Shown here in pieces: positions 5,389 to 16,613 of a stretch of DNA of 47,169 nucleotides. This stretch comes from Acidobacteriota bacterium (GTDB lineage Bacteria > Acidobacteriota > Terriglobia > Acidiferrales > UBA7541): positions 1 through 47,169 of the forward strand of contig QHYI01000133.1 of assembly GCA_003223245.1 (NCBI GenBank), in the 5' to 3' direction. The first letter of the stretch is position 1. Every line of letters starts with the position of its first letter. The translations under genes were made by a program, and so were the position numbers. The notes beneath the pieces were generated by a model that saw only the letters and a program-made list of their open reading frames with translations, was not told where the DNA came from and made no database searches.

Positions 5389-6231
5389 GTGGCCGACACT
5401 CCGCTCCAGATAACAGGCAACCGTGCAAAGGCGGAAGAGCTACCTTCGGTGGTCGAAGTGCTCGAAGGCGCGACGAAACGGGCAATCGCTGCCGTTCAGG
5501 ACTACTCGCAGCTTTCCTTCCGTGCGCTGGGCAATCTCGCGACTCCCCCGCATTATATTCAAGACACGCTTGTGCAGATGGATGATGTAGGTGTTGGCTC
5601 GCTGCCGATCATCCTGCTCTCCGGATTCTTCATCGGTGGCGTGATGGTGTTACAGACCGGCGCGCAATTCGTGCGGTTTGGCCAGACATCGCTGACCGGA
5701 GACGTGGTGTCGCTGGCGCTGGTGCGCGAGCTGGCCCCGGCGATCACGGGCCTGCTCACTGCTGGGCGCTGCTCTTCGGGAATGGCTTCCGAACTGGGTT
5801 CCATGCTGGTGACCGAGCAAGTGGACGCTATGCGGGCGATGGGCACCGACCCCAGTCGCAAGCTGGTCACCCCGCGAGTGCTGGCAAGCTTAGCGATGGT
5901 CCCATTGTTGACCGCCTTGATGGTGTTCGTTGGCCTGTTGGGTGGGTGCGTCGCATCGGTCTTTTCACTGCAACTGAGCGCCGTGGAGTTTTGGCGGCGC
6001 GCGATCGACATCCTTGAATTCTCCGACCTAATGCAAGGCCTTATTAAAGCTCTGGTGTTTGGGTTCCTTCTCGCCACCGTGGGGTGCTACAAAGGACTAA
6101 CCGTACGCGGCGGAACCCAGGGTGTTGGGCGGGCCACCACGCAAGCGGTGGTGATTTCCTCCGTGCTTATCATTGTCGCGGACCTTTTCCTGACCAAGCT
6201 CGCTCTCTATCTTGCCAACCGAGTTTTCTAA
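5389..6231 (+). CDS. mlaE: MlaE-family ABC transporter permease
   Basis: Inner-membrane permease of a lipid transporter that moves phospholipids between the inner and outer membrane with MlaF (ATPase) and an Mce/MlaD protein. The 280-residue product has the family's LARELAPAITGLLTAGRCSS-type core (here VRELAPAITGLLTAGR) with the conserved GSMLVTEQVDAMRAMG segment, and about five hydrophobic helices (e.g. around IILLSGFFIGGVMVL and the C-terminal VVISSVLIIVADLFL). The GTG start follows AGGAA; no ATG exists upstream in frame before a stop. Unusually its partners mlaF and mlaD lie 2.3 kb downstream beyond an opposite-strand peptidase gene. Confidence 0.92.
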   Translation: MADTPLQITGNRAKAEELPSVVEVLEGATKRAIAAVQDYSQLSFRALGNLATPPHYIQDTLVQMDDVGVGSLPIILLSGFFIGGVMVLQTGAQFVRFGQTSLTGDVVSLALVRELAPAITGLLTAGRCSSGMASELGSMLVTEQVDAMRAMGTDPSRKLVTPRVLASLAMVPLLTALMVFVGLLGGCVASVFSLQLSAVEFWRRAIDILEFSDLMQGLIKALVFGFLLATVGCYKGLTVRGGTQGVGRATTQAVVISSVLIIVADLFLTKLALYLANRVF

Positions 6232-6255
6232 GCTCCTGCCGCTCGACGTGGGAGC

Positions 6256-8424
6256 CTAGTTCCCGGGGGCAATCGATTCACCTTTGATGAGCGCGCGGTC
6301 GAAGAAATCGGCCGTCGCCTTATAGCCGCGCACCCAAGAACGCCATAATAGAAAGTCGTGGATTTCGTCGGGGAAGACAATCTGCTCGAAAGGAACTTTT
6401 TGTTCGCGCAGGCGTTGGACAAGGTCCACCATCTGGCTGAAGTCCACGTTGCGGTCATCATCGCCTTGAATCAGCAGGACTGGCGATTTCCACGTTTTTA
6501 TGGAGGCATCGGGCGAAGATTCGAAAGCCAGGCGCATGGCTTCGGCGCGGTCGGGAGGCCCACCGCCCTCCTGTCCACCCGGACCTCCACGGAAGATGCC
6601 GCGCGCGGACCAGTCATGCACGCCGTGGAAGTCCACGCCCGCTTTGAAGATATCGGAATTGCGCGCCAGGCCCATGGCGGTCAGGAAGCCGCCGTAAGAG
6701 CCGCCCCAAAGGCCAATCTTTTTCGGATCCACGATCGGAAGCGTTTCTAGATACTTCGCGGCCGCAACGATGTCCTGATATTCCTCAGCACCGCGCGGTC
6801 CGCCCTTCTCGCGCTCGCGGAAAGCGCGCCCGTACATGATGCCGGTGCGATAGTTGACCGAGAGAACCACGAAACCGCGCGAGACGAGATACTCATTTTC
6901 GGCGTATGCGTTGTGATAGTACTGCAGGTAATGAAAGCCGAGCATCATTTGGCGACGCGAGCCGCCGTGCATAAACAGCAGCGCGGGACCGGGCGCAGTG
7001 CGACCGCGCGGAACGAAGAGTTGGCCGTGAATCTCTAAGCCGTCCTCCGAGGGGAAAATCACTTGCTTGGGAACGACCATCTGCCCCGAGGGAAAGTCCG
7101 AAGGAAGCTGCGTGCTCGCGATCAACTCGCGCCCGGAAGCCGTCAGACGGTATGGCATTGCCGGAGAGACGGCGGTTGAGCCCAGGCACGCGATGGTGTG
7201 CCCATCGGCGAGTTCGACCGGAGACCATTCGATCGTCTCGCCCTTCGTGAGCGGCTCAGGCTTGCCGCCCTCGATGCGAACGCGCCACAGATGACGCCGG
7301 TCGATGTCATCCTGGTTTGAAGAGTAAATCACAGAATGTGCATCGCGCGACGCGGTGACATCTTCCACTTCAAATTCGCCGGGAGTGAGCAGCGTCGCCG
7401 TGCCGCCTGTGGCAGGAATGGAATAAAGATGGTTCCACCCATCCTGCTCGGAAGCGAAGAGAATGCGGTTACCCACGAAGTGGAAGGATTTGTCTTCCGT
7501 GAGATTCGGAAGTGAGCCGTTGAGCTCTTCGTTGCTGTGCCAGATCGCGCGTGCTTCACCGGTGGCCGCGTCCGCGACGTAGATAGCCCAAGGATTCGGG
7601 CGAATCTGAAGCAGCGGGGAACGCTCTTCGAGGCCGTGGATACGCACGAAGGCGATCTGCCTGCCGTCAGCCGACCAGCGGGGCATTCCGTCGCGGTCGA
7701 CCGAAGGAGCGAGGTAGCGGACCGATTCCCGACCGAAATTATAAACGCCAATGAAACTGTGGTCGCCCCGATGCGAGACGAAGGCGATTTCCGTCCCGTC
7801 AGGCGACCATTTCGGTGAGTCATTTTCGCCGCGCACGAACGCGAGTTGATGCGCGGGAACAGCGCCGGACACCGGTGCAACCCAAAGTTGTCCTCGTGCC
7901 GCCCAAACGGCCGTGGTGCCGTCCGGTGAAATCTCAATATCCTCGCAGCCTTCGCGAGTGCAATCCAAATCGCCGAGATAACGCGGCTCACCCTTGTCCA
8001 CGTCGACGGCCCACACTTGCTGGTTGGGCCGCGTGACGTTGCTGGTCGGGTCAGCCACCTCGCCGAGGGAGTTGAGTTCGCTTCCGCGCGAATATACAAC
8101 CGTGCCTCCATCGGGAGTGAGCCGAAGGCTGGCGAGCGCCAGGCCGTCGTCTTCGGAGTAGTGCGTCACCTGGCGAGCGGAGAAAGCCGGAGCGTCTGCA
8201 ATCCAGACGTTGCGCACGCCCTTCGCGTCGAACGCCCAAGCAATTCGCGGTGCTCGCGCCGCGCCCGTCAGATTGTCAGGGAACGGCGAACTCATGACCT
8301 GCTCGACGGTGAGGCTTTGTGCCAGGGCAGCATGCGGAACGAGCAACATGCGCACGCAGCAAACCAAGAGTGCGGAAAGATGCGCGAGGGATGGCAATTG
8401 AGACGTGCGGAAAATTGTTTTCAC
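6256..8424 (-). CDS. S9 family peptidase (prolyl oligopeptidase / acylaminoacyl-peptidase type), exported
   Basis: Serine peptidase acting on short peptides. The 722-residue product begins with a signal peptide (hydrophobic stretch to about residue 35, cleavage near ALAQ), followed by a beta-propeller of WD40/PD40-type repeats (SPDGT, SADGRQIAF and similar, roughly 60-430) and a C-terminal alpha/beta hydrolase. The nucleophile elbow GLWGGSYGG gives Ser576, with Asp in QGDDDRN (655-657) and His689 in DEIHDF. It is convergent with mlaE (25 bp apart) and divergent from mlaF, so it splits the Mla set. Location is probably periplasmic. Confidence 0.94.
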   Translation of the reverse strand: MKTIFRTSQLPSLAHLSALLVCCVRMLLVPHAALAQSLTVEQVMSSPFPDNLTGAARAPRIAWAFDAKGVRNVWIADAPAFSARQVTHYSEDDGLALASLRLTPDGGTVVYSRGSELNSLGEVADPTSNVTRPNQQVWAVDVDKGEPRYLGDLDCTREGCEDIEISPDGTTAVWAARGQLWVAPVSGAVPAHQLAFVRGENDSPKWSPDGTEIAFVSHRGDHSFIGVYNFGRESVRYLAPSVDRDGMPRWSADGRQIAFVRIHGLEERSPLLQIRPNPWAIYVADAATGEARAIWHSNEELNGSLPNLTEDKSFHFVGNRILFASEQDGWNHLYSIPATGGTATLLTPGEFEVEDVTASRDAHSVIYSSNQDDIDRRHLWRVRIEGGKPEPLTKGETIEWSPVELADGHTIACLGSTAVSPAMPYRLTASGRELIASTQLPSDFPSGQMVVPKQVIFPSEDGLEIHGQLFVPRGRTAPGPALLFMHGGSRRQMMLGFHYLQYYHNAYAENEYLVSRGFVVLSVNYRTGIMYGRAFREREKGGPRGAEEYQDIVAAAKYLETLPIVDPKKIGLWGGSYGGFLTAMGLARNSDIFKAGVDFHGVHDWSARGIFRGGPGGQEGGGPPDRAEAMRLAFESSPDASIKTWKSPVLLIQGDDDRNVDFSQMVDLVQRLREQKVPFEQIVFPDEIHDFLLWRSWVRGYKATADFFDRALIKGESIAPGN

Positions 8425-8573
8425 GGAGAATCACCTCTTTTTTCGGCTTCAAAATCGGCAGTATTGTACGCCCGACTCGCCCCCTCGGCGTATGTACCCA
8501 CGCTCCGCAGAACGATTACGCTTTGCACGCTCTTTCCGAAAACCGGAAGCGAATTGCCGCTATAATCGCAGGT
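8425..8573. promoter_or_regulatory. Divergent promoter region between S9 peptidase and mlaF
   Basis: A perfect TATAAT lies at 8561-8566 but has no convincing -35 at the usual spacing, and it ends only 7 bases before the ATG at 8574. If used, the transcript would be leaderless or start at a later codon. The remainder must also hold the minus-strand peptidase promoter. Confidence 0.4.
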
Positions 8574-9410
8574 ATGATGGAAAATGGGTCTTTTCCCTAT
8601 GGAGGAGTACGATCTGCCATTGCGTTTGAAAACGTGCGCATCGGCTTCGATGAAGGGGAAATTCTGCGTGGGGTGTCATTTCGCGTGCGCGAGCGGGAAA
8701 CCCTGGTCTTACTGGGGGAAACTGGCACGGGGAAAACGCTTACGTTGAAAATGGCAGCGGGTTTGCTGCGACCCGATAGCGGTACGGTCAACGTGCTGGG
8801 CCAAAGTGTTTCGGAAATGGAGGAGAAAGAGCTTCTGGCATTTCGCCGCAAGATCGGCTTCATGTTTCAGGAAGGAGCTCTGTTCGACTCCATGACCGTG
8901 GCCGACAACGTGGCATACCGGTTGCACGAAGATCATATGAGGGCAGAAGAGATCGAGCCGCGCGTAAGAGAAGTGCTGCGGTTTGTGGAACTGGAACACA
9001 CCATGGGCTTGCTTCCTTCCGAGTTGTCCGGTGGCATGAGGCGCCGCGTTTCCATCGCGCGAGCATTAGCGAATCGGCCCCCCATCGTGCTGTGCGATTC
9101 CCCAACGGCGGGTTTGGATCCCATGACCTCGCAGACGATCATCACGCTGATTTTGCGCCTGCGGGATATGTATGGAGTGACGGCGCTGCTCGCCACACAC
9201 CGGCTGCAGGATGGATTCGCGCTGGCGAACTTCCACTTTGACCCGCGAACCGAACGCGTTGTGGCTAACTCACAAAACGGGAGCGGACCAGCTGCAAATG
9301 CCGCCCACACGCGGTTTCTGGTCTATCGCGAGGGAGAGATTTATTTCGAAGGGGAGCCTGAGGAAATCGCGAATTCGAAAGACCCTTATCTGAAGCGTTT
9401 CTTGGTCTGA
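8574..9410 (+). CDS. mlaF: MlaF-like ABC transporter ATP-binding protein
   Basis: ATPase of the Mla lipid transporter. In the 278-residue product the Walker A is GETGTGKT (48-55), Q-loop Gln99, signature LSGGM (151-155) and H-loop His209 (ATHR). The Walker B region reads VLCDSPTAGLDP: the usual catalytic Glu after the Asp is Ser176, which may slow hydrolysis or mean another residue substitutes. The start is ATG 8574 or 8577; an upstream open extension to 8319 overlaps the divergent peptidase gene and has no family similarity. GGAGG at 8601-8605 lies inside the gene and is followed in frame only by an ATT. The gene is followed after 42 bp by mlaD. Confidence 0.92.
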   Translation: MMENGSFPYGGVRSAIAFENVRIGFDEGEILRGVSFRVRERETLVLLGETGTGKTLTLKMAAGLLRPDSGTVNVLGQSVSEMEEKELLAFRRKIGFMFQEGALFDSMTVADNVAYRLHEDHMRAEEIEPRVREVLRFVELEHTMGLLPSELSGGMRRRVSIARALANRPPIVLCDSPTAGLDPMTSQTIITLILRLRDMYGVTALLATHRLQDGFALANFHFDPRTERVVANSQNGSGPAANAAHTRFLVYREGEIYFEGEPEEIANSKDPYLKRFLV

Positions 9411-9452
9411 ATTTGCCGTAGCCTTTTTCTTGGTATCAGGAGGAAAGAACAA

Positions 9453-10544
9453 ATGCCACAACGAAGACAACTTACCTGGACGGAATTGCGGGTGGGGCTG
9501 TTTGTGCTGGTGGGCTTGTCCGTGCTGGCCGCGGGAATATTTTACGTAACCTCTGTGGGCGGAGGACCCCTGTCGCCGAAATACCGGTTGAAGACTTATC
9601 TGCCCGAGGTTTCGGGGTTAGTCGACGGAGCGGGTGTGAAGGTGGACGGCGTGGAAGTGGGCAACGTCGAATCCATCCGATTTATGCCTCGAACTGCGGG
9701 AAAGCCGGTAGATCGAAACAAGAATATCGAAGTGCTGATGCGCGTTAGCCGCAACTACCAAAGCGATATTTTGACCGATTCGGTGGCGAGTCTCAGGACC
9801 GAAGGCCTGTTAGGGAACCGCTATGTCACCATTTCGCGCGGACTGACGGGAACACAGGTCCCCGATAACGGAGTCATTCCCGGGACGGAAGAAAAGGCCA
9901 TGTCGGAAGTGGTGGAGCGAAGTGCCGATGTTCTGGGCAATCTTCAAGCATTGTCCACGGATGTGCGGGACATGATTGCCGGGGTGCAGCAAGGGCGCGG
10001 CTCGCTCGGAAAAATGCTGACCGACGACCAGGCCTATAATCACATGCGGGACATGCTCGCGAAGGGCGACGCGATGATGACCAGCATCCGCGACGGGCAA
10101 GGAACGCTCGGAAGGCTCGTTGCTTCCGATGAGCTGTATTCGAAAATCGATAAAGGGGCGGATAACATGAACGTGATGCTGGCGGACGTGCGGGCAGGAA
10201 AAGGAACACTGGGCAAATTGATCTACGACCCTACGCTCTACGACCAAGCCAAAGAAGCGATGACCAATGGCAACACCATGATCAAGGACGCGCGCGAGGG
10301 CAAAGGTTCGTTGGGCAAATTCATAACCGATGACACGCTTTATGACAAGCTGCGCGAAACCAGCGCGAACTTTGCGTCGGCCTCCGCAAAGTTGAATGAC
10401 AACACCACGACCGCGGGAAAAATGTTCACAGACCCGAAACTTTACGACAACCTTGCGGGACTGACCGGAGACATGCGACTGTTGATCGGAGATTTCCGGC
10501 AAAATCCGAAGAAATTCCTGCGCATCAAAGTCGCGATGTTCTGA
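9453..10544 (+). CDS. mlaD: MlaD/Mce-domain lipid-binding protein with 34-residue repeats
   Basis: Periplasmic, membrane-anchored substrate-binding part of the Mla transporter. The 363-residue product has one N-terminal transmembrane helix (about 12-31, ELRVGLFVLVGLSVLAAGIF), an MCE domain (about 40-140, with VSGLVDGAGVKVDGVEVGNV) and a C-terminal half built of five tandem 34-residue repeats. AGGAGGAAAG precedes the ATG, an excellent ribosome site. E. coli MlaD is only about 180 residues, so the repeat tail roughly doubles the size. It could form an extended helical shaft toward the outer membrane, but that is inference. Confidence 0.93.
   Translation: MPQRRQLTWTELRVGLFVLVGLSVLAAGIFYVTSVGGGPLSPKYRLKTYLPEVSGLVDGAGVKVDGVEVGNVESIRFMPRTAGKPVDRNKNIEVLMRVSRNYQSDILTDSVASLRTEGLLGNRYVTISRGLTGTQVPDNGVIPGTEEKAMSEVVERSADVLGNLQALSTDVRDMIAGVQQGRGSLGKMLTDDQAYNHMRDMLAKGDAMMTSIRDGQGTLGRLVASDELYSKIDKGADNMNVMLADVRAGKGTLGKLIYDPTLYDQAKEAMTNGNTMIKDAREGKGSLGKFITDDTLYDKLRETSANFASASAKLNDNTTTAGKMFTDPKLYDNLAGLTGDMRLLIGDFRQNPKKFLRIKVAMF
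9990..10499 (+). repeat. Five tandem 102-bp (34-residue) coding repeats in mlaD
   Basis: Units start at 9990, 10092, 10194, 10296 and 10398, each exactly 102 bp apart. They open QGRGSLGKMLTDDQAY, DGQGTLGRLVASDELY, AGKGTLGKLIYDPTLY, EGKGSLGKFITDDTLY and DNTTTAGKMFTDPKLY. Consensus: xGxG(S/T)LG(K/R)xxxDxxLY then about 18 variable helical residues. Confidence 0.88.
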
Positions 10545-10645
10545 AAGCCCAGGGCCTTTGCCGGAATGGCCGCAATTGTGCTGTAATGCGGCTGTAACAT
10601 TCGGCACCTACTCTTGCCCTTTGATCCGCTTCTCGTTCGAGGCCC

Positions 10646-11413
10646 ATGGAAACTCAAGATGTTGTACAAAAACCGGCGCGGACCGAGCCGTCAAAATCCA
10701 CTCTTCCGCAGCCGGGGCGGCCGGTTCCCAGCCGTGCCTATCCCGGCGCGTTGATCGTGGTCGAGGGAACCGACGGCTCCGGAAAAAGCACGCAATTGTA
10801 TTTGCTCAAGCGCTGGCTGGAAATCGGCGGTTACCGGCTGCACTTCACGGAATGGAATTCTTCGCCGCTGGTAAAATCGGCGACCCGGCGCGGCAAGCAG
10901 CGGCGCTTGCTTACACCCACCACCTTTTCGCTCTTGCACGCCGCCGATTTTGCCGACCGCTGCGAGCGGCAAATCATGCCCTTGCTCCAAGGAGATTATC
11001 TGGTTCTGGCCGACCGCTACATCTACACCGCGTTCGCGCGCGATACGGCCAGGGGCTGTTCGACCCGCTGGCTGCGAAATCTCTATCGTTTCGCGCCGAT
11101 TCCAGACATTACCTTTTATTTCCGCGCGCCGCTCGATGTAGCGGTGAACCGTATTCTCAGTGGCCGTCCCAGGCTCAAATACTATGAAGCAGGCATGGAC
11201 CTGGGGCTGTCGTACGACCGCGCCGAGAGTTTTCGTTTATTCCAGGCGCGGATCCTCGAGGAATACGACAAGATGGTGGAAACCGACAATTTCGTAGTGC
11301 TTGACGGAACCATGCCGGTCAACAAATTGCAAAAACAGATGCGCGAAATCGTTGCGTCGAAGATCGATCTCAAGCGCTTCGCCCCTCGCGCGGAGGAAGC
11401 GGAGAAGGCATGA
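10646..11413 (+). CDS. Thymidylate-kinase-like P-loop kinase, copy 1
   Basis: A 255-residue protein of the dTMP kinase superfamily: Walker A GTDGSGKST (41-49), DRY-type motif LADRYIYT (121-128) and a C-terminal LILDG-like strand (FVVLDG). Classical Tmk phosphorylates dTMP to dTDP; this one has a 33-residue Pro-rich leader and lacks the usual neighbour holB, and sits beside a second diverged copy and phosphate-linked genes. It may therefore be the housekeeping Tmk or a kinase for another phosphate substrate. Its stop overlaps the start of the next gene (ATGA), so the two are translationally coupled and could form a heterodimer. Confidence 0.82.
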   Translation: METQDVVQKPARTEPSKSTLPQPGRPVPSRAYPGALIVVEGTDGSGKSTQLYLLKRWLEIGGYRLHFTEWNSSPLVKSATRRGKQRRLLTPTTFSLLHAADFADRCERQIMPLLQGDYLVLADRYIYTAFARDTARGCSTRWLRNLYRFAPIPDITFYFRAPLDVAVNRILSGRPRLKYYEAGMDLGLSYDRAESFRLFQARILEEYDKMVETDNFVVLDGTMPVNKLQKQMREIVASKIDLKRFAPRAEEAEKA

Positions 11414-12258
11414 CGGACCCGGAAAAAGAGAAGCCCGCGGCCGCGGTTACTGCGACAGACATGCCTGCGTCTCCGTCCGCGGCTCCGGCGTCGCCAAAAA
11501 CGGCTTCAGCTCCCGAAGATTCCGGCTCGCAAAAGTTTTTCGGCGAGCCCCTGGTTGGCTTTGATCCCAGCGAAATTACCGGCAGCCTGATCGTGATTGA
11601 AGGCATGGACGGCTCGGGACGCTCTACGCAAATCACTCTTTTGCAGGAATGGCTGGAGTCGGAAGGCTTCGCCGTACAAACCAGCGGCCTGCGGCGTTCG
11701 AATCTCGTAGGGCGAGATATTGATGAACTCCTCGCCAAAAACGCGGTGACCCGCCTCACGCTCGTCCTGATGTACGCCACAGATTTCTTTGACCAGGTCG
11801 AGCACCGCATCCTGCCGGCGCTGCGCTCCGGCACGATCGTGCTCGCGGACCGTTATATCTTCACCTTGATTGGCCGCGGTGTGGTGCGCGGCATCAACCG
11901 CGAATACATGAGCGGGCTCTACGCCATGGCGCTGCGCCCGCATCTGACTTTCTGGCTGAACGTGCGCCCGGAAACCGCCTTCGGCCGCGAGTTCCGCAAA
12001 GCGCAGGCCATCAGCTACTGGGAGGCGGGCCGCGACATGTCGCTTTCCCACGATCTCTACTGGTCCTTTATCCGCTACCAGACTATGATTAAGCGCGAAT
12101 TCGAAGTGATGGCGAAAAAGCACAACTTCATCGAACTGGACGGCGAAGCCACCGTGCCCGCCGTCAACAAGCTGCTGCGTCAGCGCATTGCCGAGCAACT
12201 CGGCATCCGCTCCACGAAGTACACTCCCTCCTCCGCCCTGGCTCACCTCTGGCGGTAA
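11410..12258 (+). CDS. Thymidylate-kinase-like protein, copy 2, altered Walker A
   Basis: A 282-residue paralog of the preceding gene: IVIEGMDGSGRST (61-73) and LADRYIFT (146-153) align with its motifs. The P-loop Lys is Arg71, a change that often weakens or abolishes nucleotide phosphoryl transfer, so this copy may be catalytically impaired or regulatory. The first 57 residues are Ala/Pro/Ser-rich and probably disordered. It starts inside the stop of copy 1 and ends 8 bp before the Ppx/GppA gene, placing all three in one operon. Function is not established from sequence. Confidence 0.8.
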   Translation: MTDPEKEKPAAAVTATDMPASPSAAPASPKTASAPEDSGSQKFFGEPLVGFDPSEITGSLIVIEGMDGSGRSTQITLLQEWLESEGFAVQTSGLRRSNLVGRDIDELLAKNAVTRLTLVLMYATDFFDQVEHRILPALRSGTIVLADRYIFTLIGRGVVRGINREYMSGLYAMALRPHLTFWLNVRPETAFGREFRKAQAISYWEAGRDMSLSHDLYWSFIRYQTMIKREFEVMAKKHNFIELDGEATVPAVNKLLRQRIAEQLGIRSTKYTPSSALAHLWR

Positions 12259-12266
12259 CTTCGCCG

Positions 12267-13862
12267 ATGCCCGACCCGGTTCACATCGCGGCCATCGATG
12301 CCGGCACCAACGCCGTACGCCTTTCCATAGCGCGCGCTCACTCCGCCTTGGATATCGAGCCCCTGCAGAATGAACGATACCCCTTGCGTCTGGGCGAAAG
12401 CGTGTTTGTACGGCCCCGCTTTACCGAGGACGTTTTCAAGAAAGCTGCCAAAGCCTTCCGCTATTTCCGTGAAGTCATGGACGATTTCGGGGTGGCGCGC
12501 TACCGTGCCGTGGCCACCAGCGCCACGCGAGAGGCGGAAAACCGCGATGCCTTCGTCCGCTCCGTGAAGAGAAAATCCGGAATCCTTCTGGAAGTGATCA
12601 GCGCGGCGGAAGAATCCCGCCTAGGCAGGGAGGCGGTGCTTACGGCGGTGGGGCCGGAAGCTGTGCCCCGTTGCATTGTGGACCTGGGTGGCGGAAGCTT
12701 GGAGATTAGCATTCTCCGTGACCACGCCGTGGAACAAAGTGCTCAACTGCCCGTGGGCTGTGTTCGGCTTATGACCACGTTGAATCTTCCCGGAGTGATC
12801 CGGCCCGCAGAGCGCGAACAGGTGCGTAAGTACCTGCGCGCCCTGTTGGAGTCAAAACTGTCGCCTAGGCCCAACCTTGGCGAGGGAATCGCCGTGGCTC
12901 TCGGCGGCAATGCGGAAGCCCTGGCCGACATCGCTCCAGGAGAGCGAGTTCACGGCTTGCCGACCATCGAACTCTCCCTGTTGAGGGAACGCTTGCCCGA
13001 CATTCTCAGCCGCGACGTGCGTGAACGTATGAAGATTTATGGAGTGCGCCGCGACCGCGCCGACGTGATAGGCATCGCCGCGATTATTTTTGTCACCCTC
13101 GGGCGCTACCTGAATCTTCGCCTCTTTGCCGTTCCAGGCGTCGGCGTGCGCGAAGGGCTTCTGCAGCAAATCGCCCACGAAACGTTTTCTCGCAAGGAAC
13201 CTCATCGCTACAACAGCGCTGCCCGCCAGTTACTCCTGGGGACACGCAGTTTTGCGCGCAGGCTCGAATATGACCAGCGACACGCGGAACACGTGCGCGA
13301 ACTGAGTCTCCAGCTTTTTGACCAGCTGCAGCCGGTGCACCGTTTGCCGCCGCAGACCCGCGTGCTTCTCGAGGCGGGAGCTTTGTTGCACGATACCGGG
13401 CACATGATCAGTCACCGCGGACACCACAAACATGGCGAGTATCTGGTGTTGAGTGGCGACATTCCCGGGCTCGAAGGGCGCGAACGTGGCATCGTCGCAG
13501 GCTTGGTGCGGTATCACAATCGCAAGTCGGAACCTGCCGCCCATCATCCTGCCTATTCAGCTTTGGACGATGCCGATAAACCCGTACTGCGAAGATTGGC
13601 GGCTATTTTGCGGATTGCCGAGAGCCTCGACCATTCCCACCGCCAGCGCGTTGTGAAAATTCACACCTCCTTCCACCGCGGGGCCGTGAGTTTGGAAGTG
13701 CAGGCTCGCGGTGACGCAGCGGAAGATTTGCGCGACGCAGGCCGCAGCACAGAATGGTTCGAAAAAGAGTGTCACGTGAAAGTGTATACGCGACGAGCTC
13801 CCAGTTTTATGAACCGGCTCCGGCGGTTGTTCCGCCCGTCGTCGGCCTTGAGAGATTCGTGA
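12267..13862 (+). CDS. Ppx/GppA phosphatase with C-terminal HD domain
   Basis: Exopolyphosphatase / guanosine pentaphosphate phosphatase family. The 531-residue product has the actin-fold phosphate motifs AIDAGTNAVRL (9-19), AAEESRLGRE (113-122, catalytic Glu and Arg) and VDLGGGSLEI (138-147). From about 320 an HD domain follows: His342, LLHDTGH (His375, Asp376), HHKHGEYL (386-393) and a final Asp in AESLD. The two-domain layout is like E. coli Ppx, which degrades polyphosphate processively. It is packed against the two kinase-like genes and sixA, supporting a role in phosphate/polyphosphate turnover; ppGpp hydrolysis is the alternative. Confidence 0.93.
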   Translation: MPDPVHIAAIDAGTNAVRLSIARAHSALDIEPLQNERYPLRLGESVFVRPRFTEDVFKKAAKAFRYFREVMDDFGVARYRAVATSATREAENRDAFVRSVKRKSGILLEVISAAEESRLGREAVLTAVGPEAVPRCIVDLGGGSLEISILRDHAVEQSAQLPVGCVRLMTTLNLPGVIRPAEREQVRKYLRALLESKLSPRPNLGEGIAVALGGNAEALADIAPGERVHGLPTIELSLLRERLPDILSRDVRERMKIYGVRRDRADVIGIAAIIFVTLGRYLNLRLFAVPGVGVREGLLQQIAHETFSRKEPHRYNSAARQLLLGTRSFARRLEYDQRHAEHVRELSLQLFDQLQPVHRLPPQTRVLLEAGALLHDTGHMISHRGHHKHGEYLVLSGDIPGLEGRERGIVAGLVRYHNRKSEPAAHHPAYSALDDADKPVLRRLAAILRIAESLDHSHRQRVVKIHTSFHRGAVSLEVQARGDAAEDLRDAGRSTEWFEKECHVKVYTRRAPSFMNRLRRLFRPSSALRDS

Positions 13863-13899
13863 ACGATCCGCGAGTCCAGCAGAAGGTTAGGAGAAGAAG

Positions 13900-14403
13900 A
13901 TGGAGCTCTACATCGTCCGGCACGGCATCGCGATCGATCGCGAAGACCCGAAATGCCCTGCGGATCCGGAAAGGTATTTGACCGAAGAGGGCGTCGAGAA
14001 AACGAAGGGAGTCGCGAAGGGCTTGGCTGCGCTTGGCGTAGCTCCCGGCCTGTTCCTGACCAGCCCGTACACGCGGGCGCTGCAAACAGCAGAGATTTTC
14101 GCCGATGCCCTGGATTACGCAAGGCAGAAAATCCGGCGAAGCGAATTGCTGTTGCCCGGCGCCGAGCCAACGTTGCTCTTTCGCGAGCTCGCTCGCGAGA
14201 AACAAGCCTCTTCAATTTTTCTGTTTGGTCATGCGCCGCATCTCGACGACGTCGTTGCCACCGTGCTCGGCTCCAAAAAGCATGGGACGGCTTTGAAAAA
14301 AGCCGGAGTAGCTCTGCTTGACATGAAACGCATTTCCCCGCCGACGGGCTCGCTGGCATGGCTGGCAACCCCAAAGTTACTGCGCAAAGCAGCGCAGGAC
14401 TAG
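13900..14403 (+). CDS. sixA: SixA-type phosphohistidine phosphatase
   Basis: Histidine-phosphatase superfamily protein of 167 residues. The RHG motif (7-9, nucleophile His8), TSPYTRALQTAE and FGHAPHLD (second catalytic His) are all present. SixA removes phosphate from His of phosphotransfer domains; relatives are often found beside ppk, ppx and CHAD genes. AGGAGAAG precedes the ATG. It lies 37 bp after the Ppx/GppA gene and ends the plus-strand run begun at 10646. Confidence 0.9.
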   Translation: MELYIVRHGIAIDREDPKCPADPERYLTEEGVEKTKGVAKGLAALGVAPGLFLTSPYTRALQTAEIFADALDYARQKIRRSELLLPGAEPTLLFRELAREKQASSIFLFGHAPHLDDVVATVLGSKKHGTALKKAGVALLDMKRISPPTGSLAWLATPKLLRKAAQD

Positions 14404-14776
14404 TAGCCACGTAGGAGGGCGTAACCCCTCGGCAGATTTTCAAGAGCAACCGCAATGAGCGTATGCGTTGAGATTCCTTGCCGGAGCAACGGAGGAGCAT
14501 CGTAGTTCTAGAACCTAGTTGGGGTCCATTCTTGCCAGCGAGCCAAGCGGTGCAAGAAACCGTTCATCGGACTCTGCGGCTCTCATTACGATGTTTTAAA
14601 CGTAACCGCTTGCGGCGCTGCCGCTCGGCGCGAGTACGGCTTTTGTAAGCCTCACTGCTTGAAGATTTTATTAACAAGTTCGCGTTATTACTCATACGGG
14701 CTATTTTATATCACGGTGTATATCATGGCGTTGACATTGCCGGTACTTTCGTTCTATGTTTGTTATCAGGTGGTAT
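14404..14776. other. Intergenic stretch without a recognised gene
   Basis: No coding signal was found. The right part is AT-rich, with an imperfect palindrome around ATATCACGGTGTATAT near 14709-14724 and a promoter-like pair (14731-14760) serving the small ORF. No clear terminator for sixA was identified. Confidence 0.5.
14731..14760 (+). promoter_or_regulatory. Sigma70-like promoter for the small ORF
   Basis: TTGACA at 14731-14736 is a perfect -35; 18 bases later TATGTT (14755-14760) matches 4 of 6 -10 positions. Transcription would begin near 14767, just before the AGGTGG ribosome site at 14768-14773. This would exclude the ATG at 14756 as a start. Confidence 0.55.
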
Positions 14777-14977
14777 ATGAGTTTACAGCCACAGCAGCAT
14801 AATGAAGCGCTGTTGCAGCAAAGTAGCGAGGATGAGTTTCGCGACTTGCGATTTAAGGCCGTAGCGGAAGCCTTCCTGGAACTTTCGGACCTTCTCGACG
14901 ACTACGCTCCGGTTTGGTACCCCGAGCGAAGCCGCAATCGCGTTTTGGCGGCGCGCCAGCTTCTGCAAAAGGGCTAA
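14777..14977 (+). CDS. Small hypothetical acidic protein, 66 aa
   Basis: MSLQPQQHNEALLQQ... with an acidic helix (FRDLRFKAVAEAFLELSDLL) and a tail DDYAPVWYPERSRNRV. I do not recognise a named family, though small proteins with an EYAPxWY-like motif occur in related genomes by recollection. A good AGGTGG ribosome site and a promoter-like sequence support it as real. It has no signal peptide or membrane segment. It is convergent with the CHAD gene and follows the phosphate-linked operon. Confidence 0.6.
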   Translation: MSLQPQQHNEALLQQSSEDEFRDLRFKAVAEAFLELSDLLDDYAPVWYPERSRNRVLAARQLLQKG

Positions 14978-15089
14978 GGTTGTGCCTTGCTTACGGGCCG
15001 AGACTTCCTCACCTAGGCCGCGTACCTGAAGGGCCGTCCCGCAGGCGTTCCCCGAACCTTCCGGGAGTAAGTCTTGCCCTTTGCCTAAT

Positions 15090-16613
15090 TTAATCTGAGG
15101 AAGCCACCGGCTGAATCTCGACGTTTTGGCGGGCAGCCAATTCCACCACTTTTGCTTGTTTCACCACGGCCTTCAAAATCACCGGAATCCCCAGATATTC
15201 TTCAATCAAATGCTTCCCGGCGGCAAGGCGCGCGGCAGTCTCCACATCGTCCACCAGCCCGCGCACACGAACAACAATTGTCTCAGCGGACTTTTCTGCT
15301 CGCAAGCCCGCGCCGCTTTCCACGCCGCATTTGCGAAGCGCAATGGCCAATCGCAATACCCCTGCTAATGCGCGAACGTGATTCTGCTTCTCCACAGACA
15401 ATTTCGAAAACGCCCCCTTCTTCTTGGAGGGCTCGGCGCCACGGTGATAGCGGGCCACGGTGCCGAGCAATTCCCATTCTTCGTTGGTCCATCCGGGGGC
15501 CAGGGGAAGACCAAGAATAAATTTGCGCGCAGCCTTGTGCGGAGCCTTATGAGCATTCGTCTTTCCGGCCGCATGCAACCGCGCCGCGGCCAGTAGGATG
15601 TGCTTCAGCCTTGGTTCGCGAAATGCCGGGGCAGCGTCCGCGCGTTTCAATGCCTCGTATACCGCCACAGCAATGCGCGAGATCTGCGAGGTGCGGCTGG
15701 GGTCTGGGTCGACAGCACGGGCGGTAGCCCGCAACCGCGCTTCGGCGGCTGCCTCCGCACGACCGTTGGTAGGCAGGCCAGCGCGCCACAAGCTCCAAAG
15801 GCTCGTTTTGCCGAGCGTGAGCTGCCGGTACGTGCGGATGAATTTTTGGCGTTCCCGGCCAATGATTTCCACCCACAAATTCAACGAATCTTCCGTTTCC
15901 ACGAAATCCGATTTCTTCACGACCTCCAACAGCACATCCAGGTCGTGAATTTCTCCGAGTAAATCCTGGACCCGCTTCAGGTTGTCGGTCCAAATCGCGT
16001 AATGCTCCGGCAGCAGGCTCTCAACCGTATACCGAAACCGCTTTAGCCCAATGCGCAGTGCATGCCAAGGTTTAGGCCTCTCCGTGCGCAAAGCTTTTGC
16101 ATGAAGTTCTTTTGCGCTTTCGAACCGCTCGAGCGCCAGGCATTCTGCCGCCAAACTCCCTGCCGGGACCAGCCGGATGCGTTTCCGCAGTGCCCGCTCA
16201 AGTCGCTTCCACAATTTTTCATCGAATCGGGCGACGCTGCGTAATGCCGCATCGCGCAGTTCTGGTTCCTTGGAATCAAAGGATGCTAGCAATTGCGCGC
16301 GCACCAGGTCGTTTTCCGGCCCGAGCTTCTTGACCCACTCGTTCATCACTTGCGCATCCCGCAGCGCGCCTAGCGCGCGGAAAAGTTTGCGTGCGGCTTT
16401 ACGCATCTCGGGCCAGGCTGGATCAGGATCGATCTCTTCCATGGCAGCTGCTACCGAACGGCACCGCCGAATCGCCACGCGCAGGTCATGCACCGCTTCC
16501 ATGTCGGGAGATGAGCGGACCGAGTCCAGCTCCTTTAGGACTTGGTCCATCCAGAACGACAGGTCGCGATGCTCACCGTGAGCACCCGCAGAAAGCGGAG
16601 TTACAGTAGACAC
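15090..16613 (-). CDS. CHAD domain protein with degenerate HD-like C-terminus
   Basis: The 507-residue product has a CHAD domain: VHDLRVAIRRCRS (around 41-53), LRDAQVMNEW, WHALRIGLKRFRYTVE and LLGEIHDLDVL, the conserved His/Arg/Lys helices that bind polyphosphate or other polyanions. Its last ~170 residues (ARLHAAGKT, APHKAARKFILGLPL, TVARYHRGAEPSKK, LAGVLRLAIAL) parallel the HD domain of the nearby Ppx/GppA protein but the HD pair is HA, so it is likely a non-catalytic copy. I chose GTG 16613 because TCGAGG lies 6 bases upstream; the frame stays open to 17024 but those residues resemble nothing in the family. Confidence 0.85.
   Translation of the reverse strand: MSTVTPLSAGAHGEHRDLSFWMDQVLKELDSVRSSPDMEAVHDLRVAIRRCRSVAAAMEEIDPDPAWPEMRKAARKLFRALGALRDAQVMNEWVKKLGPENDLVRAQLLASFDSKEPELRDAALRSVARFDEKLWKRLERALRKRIRLVPAGSLAAECLALERFESAKELHAKALRTERPKPWHALRIGLKRFRYTVESLLPEHYAIWTDNLKRVQDLLGEIHDLDVLLEVVKKSDFVETEDSLNLWVEIIGRERQKFIRTYRQLTLGKTSLWSLWRAGLPTNGRAEAAAEARLRATARAVDPDPSRTSQISRIAVAVYEALKRADAAPAFREPRLKHILLAAARLHAAGKTNAHKAPHKAARKFILGLPLAPGWTNEEWELLGTVARYHRGAEPSKKKGAFSKLSVEKQNHVRALAGVLRLAIALRKCGVESGAGLRAEKSAETIVVRVRGLVDDVETAARLAAGKHLIEEYLGIPVILKAVVKQAKVVELAARQNVEIQPVASSD

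Follow-up and report, generated by a model that had tools for sequence, protein, structure and literature searches.

In operons of the Escherichia coli type, the polyphosphate kinase PPK1 is encoded together with the exopolyphosphatase PPX, and enzymes of the PPK2 family mostly spend polyphosphate (polyP). To judge from the title of a 2026 article in the Journal of Biological Chemistry, Hofmann et al. have reportedly described a crenarchaeal 'family 3' polyphosphate kinase. Crenarchaeota store polyP, yet no PPK1 or PPK2 homologue has been found in them, according to the portions available of two papers (PMC6864096; PMC7831078), and the excerpt of a third refers to a 'distinct PPK-type enzyme' of Sulfolobus, citing Hofmann 2026 (PMC13318637). 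Archaeal gene clusters in which SixA, PPX, dTMP kinase and CHAD occur together appear in the legend to Fig. 2 of a further paper, seen in part (PMC10892726). CHAD domains bind polyP (PMC6537752) and a thymidylate-kinase architecture is common to PPK2 enzymes (PMC8776046), as stated in the accessible parts of these two reports. Here, we analyse positions 10646–16613 of a 47,169-nucleotide stretch of an Acidobacteriota genome (assembly GCA_003223245.1, contig QHYI01000133.1, positions 1 to 47,169 of the forward strand), hereafter the window. The genes in question encode two kinase-like proteins, K1 and K2, followed by a PPX-type phosphatase, a SixA-type phosphatase and a CHAD protein. A partial search of the literature, in which sources were seen in excerpt, found no paper on bacterial members of the K1/K2 pair.

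The locus is probably a polyP operon under Pho control, the polyphosphate kinase of which has two subunits and is a relative of the crenarchaeal family-3 enzyme; we infer K1 to be the same as that enzyme or next to it. Thymidylate_kin is the sole Pfam match of both K1 (72.0 bits) and K2 (68.5 bits; cut-off 27). The nearest solved structure is in each case ST1543 of Sulfolobus tokodaii (2plr), with phmmer E values of 9.1e-60 for K1 and 4.4e-38 for K2, versus 2.8e-13 and 1.2e-12 for the best other thymidylate kinase (Tmk). K1 is 47% identical to ST1543 over 208 columns, and Foldseek, run with structure models of mean pLDDT 88.5 (K1) and 88.7 (K2), concurs on the same nearest structure at 45–47% identity for K1 and 36–37% for K2. 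In an alignment of 25 K1, 25 K2 and 15 canonical Tmk sequences, the Pro and Arg that correspond to K1 residues 71 and 102 are present in 15/15 canonical Tmks and are replaced by Asn and Phe in 25/25 K1 rows; in K1, TEWNSS takes the place of the TREPGG-type stretch seen in most of the compared Tmks. The PPK2 models of Pfam and NCBIfam gave no match to K1 at E<=0.01, nor did the Pfam PPK2 model (PF03976) to K2, which matched one polyP:AMP model of NCBIfam at 15.7 bits (cut-off 547.65). A separate Tmk-like gene, long-branched in the tree, lies on contig C219 of the host, and 18 of 19 other pair genomes carry another Thymidylate_kin protein besides the pair, G155 having the pair alone; for these reasons K1 as the only Tmk was rejected. 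The proximity of K1 to ST1543, its lack of the two Tmk hallmarks and the separate Tmk-like gene were all counted in favour of a polyP kinase.

To follow the pair, we used the loci of the 80 top-ranking relatives out of 531 that were confirmed in a single scan with an alignment of K1; K1 is present in this set by selection, and single-copy members of lower rank could be missing from it. These loci, 21 archaeal and 59 bacterial, belong to 20 named phyla, with four loci lacking a phylum name. K2 follows K1 directly on the same strand in 80/80 loci, the matched parts being at most 285 bases apart, and the complete order K1-K2-PPX-SixA with a convergent CHAD gene is collinear in L078, L129 and L146, an arrangement beyond chance. 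Strong K1 matches were also found in 31 of the 35 other genomes of the host genus. Many of the compared genomes are drafts, in which absences may be gaps. In the phylogenetic tree the clades of K1, K2 and Tmk have supports of 82/89, 99/95 and 100/100, respectively; archaeal and bacterial rows occur within both the K1 and the K2 clade, and K1 of the window groups with K1 of a Sulfolobus metagenome-assembled genome (MAG; locus L067). This tree fits an old duplication and a joint spread of K1 and K2. The earlier note had regarded a link to phosphate as accidental should K1 be the only tmk of its genome and the gene order not be conserved; the Tmk-like gene on C219, the further Thymidylate_kin proteins and an order recurring in both domains speak otherwise on each count.

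The same note had described tandem kinases, and the pair is real, but its two members are not equivalent. The Walker-A lysine is kept by K1 in 80/80 loci, and the K2 position has Arg in 73/80 (72 from the locus-wide tally and L067, read separately) and Lys in 7/80. Lys in K1 combined with Arg in K2 holds for 27/27 pairs of the Acidobacteriota sample, and we infer that K2 is catalytically dead. A divergent type was also seen, in which a K1-like kinase has a partner without a recognizable Walker A (L063 8740–9800, L064 7567–8698 and L066 7904–9099) or occurs as a single copy (L062); two of the four divergent-type genomes, G062 and G107, also carry PPK1.

The genes around the pair were counted at the 56 of the 80 loci that have 3 kb on each side, the others being too short, using hidden Markov models partly built from the same loci. 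At 35/56, the pair has PPX, CHAD or SixA no more than 3 kb away (PPX at 30, CHAD at 23 and SixA at 20), compared with none of the 16 canonical-tmk neighbourhoods of the host and 15 pair genomes; with the 15 tmk neighbourhoods of at least 6 kb, the contrast has a Fisher p of 1e-5. At least one of the three is present in the stretch fetched for 22 of the 27 pair loci of the Acidobacteriota sample. The order in the Sulfolobus MAG is SixA-PPX-K1-K2, the second copy having the Lys-to-Arg change.

No match to PPK1 (PF02503) was found in the host assembly, and a PPK1 elsewhere in it was rejected on this basis; the absence of ppk claimed in the earlier note thus holds for PPK1 but not for PPK2, of which the host has one family member, on contig C4. 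Among 149 Acidobacteriota genomes, 27 carry the pair, 69 PPK1 and 89 PPK2, and the pair and PPK1 occur together in two; the 27 carriers are strong matches, the divergent G062, G107 and G131 being left out. The 89 genomes with PPK2 comprise 20 with the pair and no PPK1, 59 with PPK1 and no pair, two with both and eight with neither (Fisher p 1.4e-11), so that 79/89 have either PPK1 or the pair but not both; two of the eight, G093 and G146, have weak PPK2 matches only. Counted by family, the exclusion persists in the 37 PPK2-containing families (p 9e-4). The 60 genomes without PPK2 gave no signal, with PPK1 in 0/5 pair genomes and 8/55 others. Beyond this sample, PPK1 was found in one of the 19 searched genomes from the 80 loci, and the genome of the Sulfolobus MAG (G149) gave no PPK1 match.

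Upstream of K1 lies a 7-4-7 direct repeat, CTGTAAT-GCGG-CTGTAAC, which we take to resemble a Pho box with a -10 element about 10 bases on. Its end is 47 bases from the K1 ATG, and the pattern CTGTMAY-N4-CTGTMAY has this single exact match in the 6.31 Mb assembly, the reversed-pattern control having none. The pstS gene of the host heads a pstSCAB-phoU operon, and the pstS promoters of the host and 23 congeners show [TC]TGTAAC-N4-[CT][TC]GTAAC in nearly all rows with a -10-like hexamer 10 bases on, the spacing between box and -10 being equal in the K1 and pstS promoters of the congeners. These sites stem from 30 searched genomes, of which 23 relatives were used (L242 was dropped as it had no coding motif, and L259–L264 were omitted as partial or paralogous), and they were chosen by the half-site CTGTAAC, a word suggested by the K1 box; in half-site scoring all 24 pstS rows reach 13 or 14, compared with 12 in 1.2% of shuffled upstreams. 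With a matrix made from the pstS promoters of the 23 congeners, the K1 site scores highest among the 94,272 window positions, at 19.5 bits against 2.5 for the runner-up, and scores inside K1 gene stretches do not exceed -6.0. Loci were available for 29 of the 31 strong congeneric K1 matches, and 28 of these 29 score at least 9.5 bits at the same place, the exception being L225. The host also encodes a PhoB-like regulator (275.6 bits; cut-off 296.2), an adjoining PnpS/PhoR-like kinase (PnpS, 412.5; cut-off 400), PstS and PstB. Judged by its sequence, the operon promoter has the same box as the pstS promoters of the genus, which places it in the predicted Pho regulon. Upstream of K1 in 79 pair loci from many phyla no clear excess of Pho-box-like sequences was found (best score at least 11 in 16 loci, about 7.7 being expected from shuffles), and the promoter claim is therefore limited to the host genus. 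By eye, 7-4-7 repeats were noticed 10 bases before a TATAAT in L110 and L120, which belong to other Acidobacteriota.

The earlier note had proposed a unit for polyP or phospho-signalling, with the kinase pair in place of ppk, and the near-exclusive occurrence of PPK1 and the pair in PPK2-containing genomes, together with the box shared with pstS, strengthens this idea. The invariable tandem, the neighbourhood contrast, the PPK1 exclusion, the pstS-like box, the Pho and Pst proteins of the host and the crenarchaeal polyP literature were all counted for a polyP operon. In such an operon, PhoB would bind the 7-4-7 box when phosphate is low and switch on K1-K2-PPX-SixA. K1 would exchange phosphate between the terminus of polyP and ATP/ADP, standing in for the missing PPK1, and K2, its constant and presumably non-catalytic partner, would hold the chain or complete a dimer. 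Going by what is known of their families, PPX would hydrolyse chain ends and the CHAD protein would dock on the polymer. More broadly, we lean towards the view that about 20 phyla of Bacteria and Archaea have, instead of PPK1, a two-subunit PPK made of an active thymidylate-kinase-like subunit and a Walker-Arg pseudokinase, that this PPK has joined the Pho regulon in one Acidobacteriota genus, and that it is easily annotated as a dTMP kinase.

Several findings weigh against a polyP operon of this kind. K1 scores above the cut-off of the NCBIfam dTMP kinase equivalog TIGR00041 (85.0 against 83.25), and for this reason automatic annotation may call it a dTMP kinase; K2 stays below it at 80.0, and the separate Tmk of the host falls under its NCBIfam cut-offs (77.4). 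ST1543 was deposited in the PDB as a dTMP kinase, and the support for the K1 clade is moderate and accompanied by long-branch warnings. None of PPX, CHAD and SixA lies within 3 kb at 21/56 loci, and no CHAD turned up in the Sulfolobus locus, which spans 11.4 kb. Lys is present in the second copy at L086, L096, L100, L101, L107, L108 and L143 (five Melainabacteria, one Cyanobacteriota and one unassigned bacterium), and since the Walker lysine is kept there, both subunits may be active in those seven loci. The mutual exclusion does not reach significance when all 64 families are counted (p 0.52), and the test at this level was rejected as support; as the exclusion is significant in the PPK2-containing families only, shared ancestry explains part of it. 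Counting the divergent G062, G107 and G131 as pair genomes lifts the share with both from 2/27 to 4/30, and PPK2 is missing from 5/27 pair genomes.

Some of these points would suit K1 as an additional kinase for dTMP (or another nucleoside monophosphate) with PPX, SixA and CHAD nearby by accident, to which the Pfam match, the equivalog score and the PDB title of ST1543 all lend themselves. We nevertheless regard this as very improbable, given a further Thymidylate_kin protein in 18/19 pair genomes, the Pro and Arg of all 15 Tmks that are gone from every K1 row, neighbours that frequent the pair (35/56) but not tmk (0/16), and a promoter box in common with pstS. It is unlikely, too, that the pair is linked to polyP mainly by spending it on nucleotides in the manner of PPK2, the polymer being made by something else. 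The nucleotide-kinase fold of K1 would permit this, as would the thymidylate-kinase architecture of PPK2 enzymes (PMC8776046, in the part seen), and the direction of transfer is not readable from sequence; the host and 22/27 pair genomes already have PPK2, however, and it is PPK1, the main synthase, and not PPK2 that is excluded by the pair, a pattern that a second consumer leaves unexplained. Finally, the pair could phosphorylate another acceptor, such as a protein, a lipid head group or a signalling molecule, with PPX, SixA and CHAD reversing or reading the mark. The annotation of SixA as a phosphohistidine phosphatase and the 21/56 loci without any of the three neighbours agree with such a role, but the complementarity with PPK1 and the binding of polyP by CHAD domains (PMC6537752, available in part) point to polyP, and we consider it quite improbable. 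The polyP operon with a two-subunit kinase thus remains the reading that we prefer.

The features of the locus are collected in Table 1. Open reading frames, Pfam and NCBIfam agree on the four packed plus-strand genes and the convergent CHAD gene recorded in the earlier note; the Lys-to-Arg change of K2, the promoter at 10581–10614 and the Ppx-GppA_III domain of the CHAD protein are additional to it.

Table 1. Coordinates (window numbering) and proposed identities of the features of the K1/K2 locus.
Feature	Position	Strand	Description
K1	10646..11413	+	Thymidylate-kinase-fold P-loop kinase, Walker A GTDGSGKST intact; proposed catalytic subunit
K2	11410..12258	+	Kinase-fold sister of K1 with Walker A GMDGSGRST, Arg replacing Lys; proposed partner subunit without catalytic activity
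PPX	12267..13862	+	Ppx/GppA phosphatase, C-terminal domain III/HD; probable exopolyphosphatase
SixA	13900..14403	+	SixA-type histidine phosphatase; TIGR00249 78.2 bits (cut-off 74.5)
CHAD	15090..16613	-	CHAD and C-terminal Ppx-GppA_III; convergent, start codon uncertain; probable polyphosphate-binding protein
Pho-box-like 7-4-7 direct repeat CTGTAAT-GCGG-CTGTAAC	10581..10598	+	Pattern search, pstS matrix, conservation in congeners
Putative -10 element TACTCT	10609..10614	+	10 bases past the box; weak TATAAT match

K1 and K2 share four bases, and gaps of eight and 37 bases separate K2 from PPX and PPX from SixA. The PPX protein matches Ppx-GppA (163 bits), Ppx-GppA_III (94.4) and HD (27.5) in Pfam and scores 201.6 with the NCBIfam exopolyphosphatase model, under the cut-off of 307; the SixA protein has both the RHG and the GHAPH motif. 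In the CHAD protein, Pfam finds CHAD (116.3 bits) and a C-terminal Ppx-GppA_III (47.2 bits), the HD motif of which appears by eye to be degenerate, with HA for HD. The small ORF that the earlier note placed before the CHAD gene (14777–14977) went unmatched in a tblastn search (E<=1) of 83 loci, 80 of them the pair loci, where SixA as a positive control was matched; the ORF was rejected as a cluster member because it is not conserved, and the CHAD gene was confirmed. The SixA and CHAD matches are 135, 88 and 42 bases apart in L078, L146 and L129, respectively. No repeats were found in 14404–15089, and the sole match of an Rfam scan was a tRNA. Directly upstream of the operon, 8319–10544 encodes an MlaF-like ATPase and an MlaD/Mce protein, and L146 has an Mce match (5712–6794) just upstream of K1.

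PPK1 is lacking from 28 of the 89 PPK2-containing Acidobacteriota genomes; were the proposed function correct, the pair would explain 20 of these 28, and surveys of polyP capacity based on ppk1 alone would miss it. The same gene pair is spread over both domains, with a first member that NCBIfam scores as dTMP kinase. The combination of active and pseudokinase would provide a simple system in which to study the role of a dead kinase subunit in an enzyme that makes a polymer, and a directly testable prediction of induction follows from the Pho-box-like promoter.

Among known systems, the archaeal clusters in Fig. 2 of PMC10892726, known to us in part, resemble the window in having PPX, SixA and CHAD beside a kinase. 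The setting of the crenarchaeal family-3 PPK is similar in that both the Sulfolobus MAG and the window host lack PPK1, whereas the window pair is bacterial, has a Pho-box-like promoter and is accompanied by a convergent CHAD gene. ST1543 (PDB entries 2plr, 4nzy, 4rzx and 5h70) shares TEWNSS with K1; it is one K1-type chain, and a K2-type structure is absent among the matches listed. Canonical Tmk has the fold, the Walker A and the DR motif in common with K1, which differs in its separate clade, in the replacement of two Tmk-invariant residues and in the presence of another Thymidylate_kin protein. PPK2 has a thymidylate-kinase-like architecture like that of K1 (PMC8776046, as far as seen), but K1 matches no PPK2 model and PPK2 is a separate gene in the host. 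Like the PPK1-PPX operons, the window operon is proposed to place a polymer kinase beside PPX; unlike them, its kinase has a different fold and its host has no PPK1.

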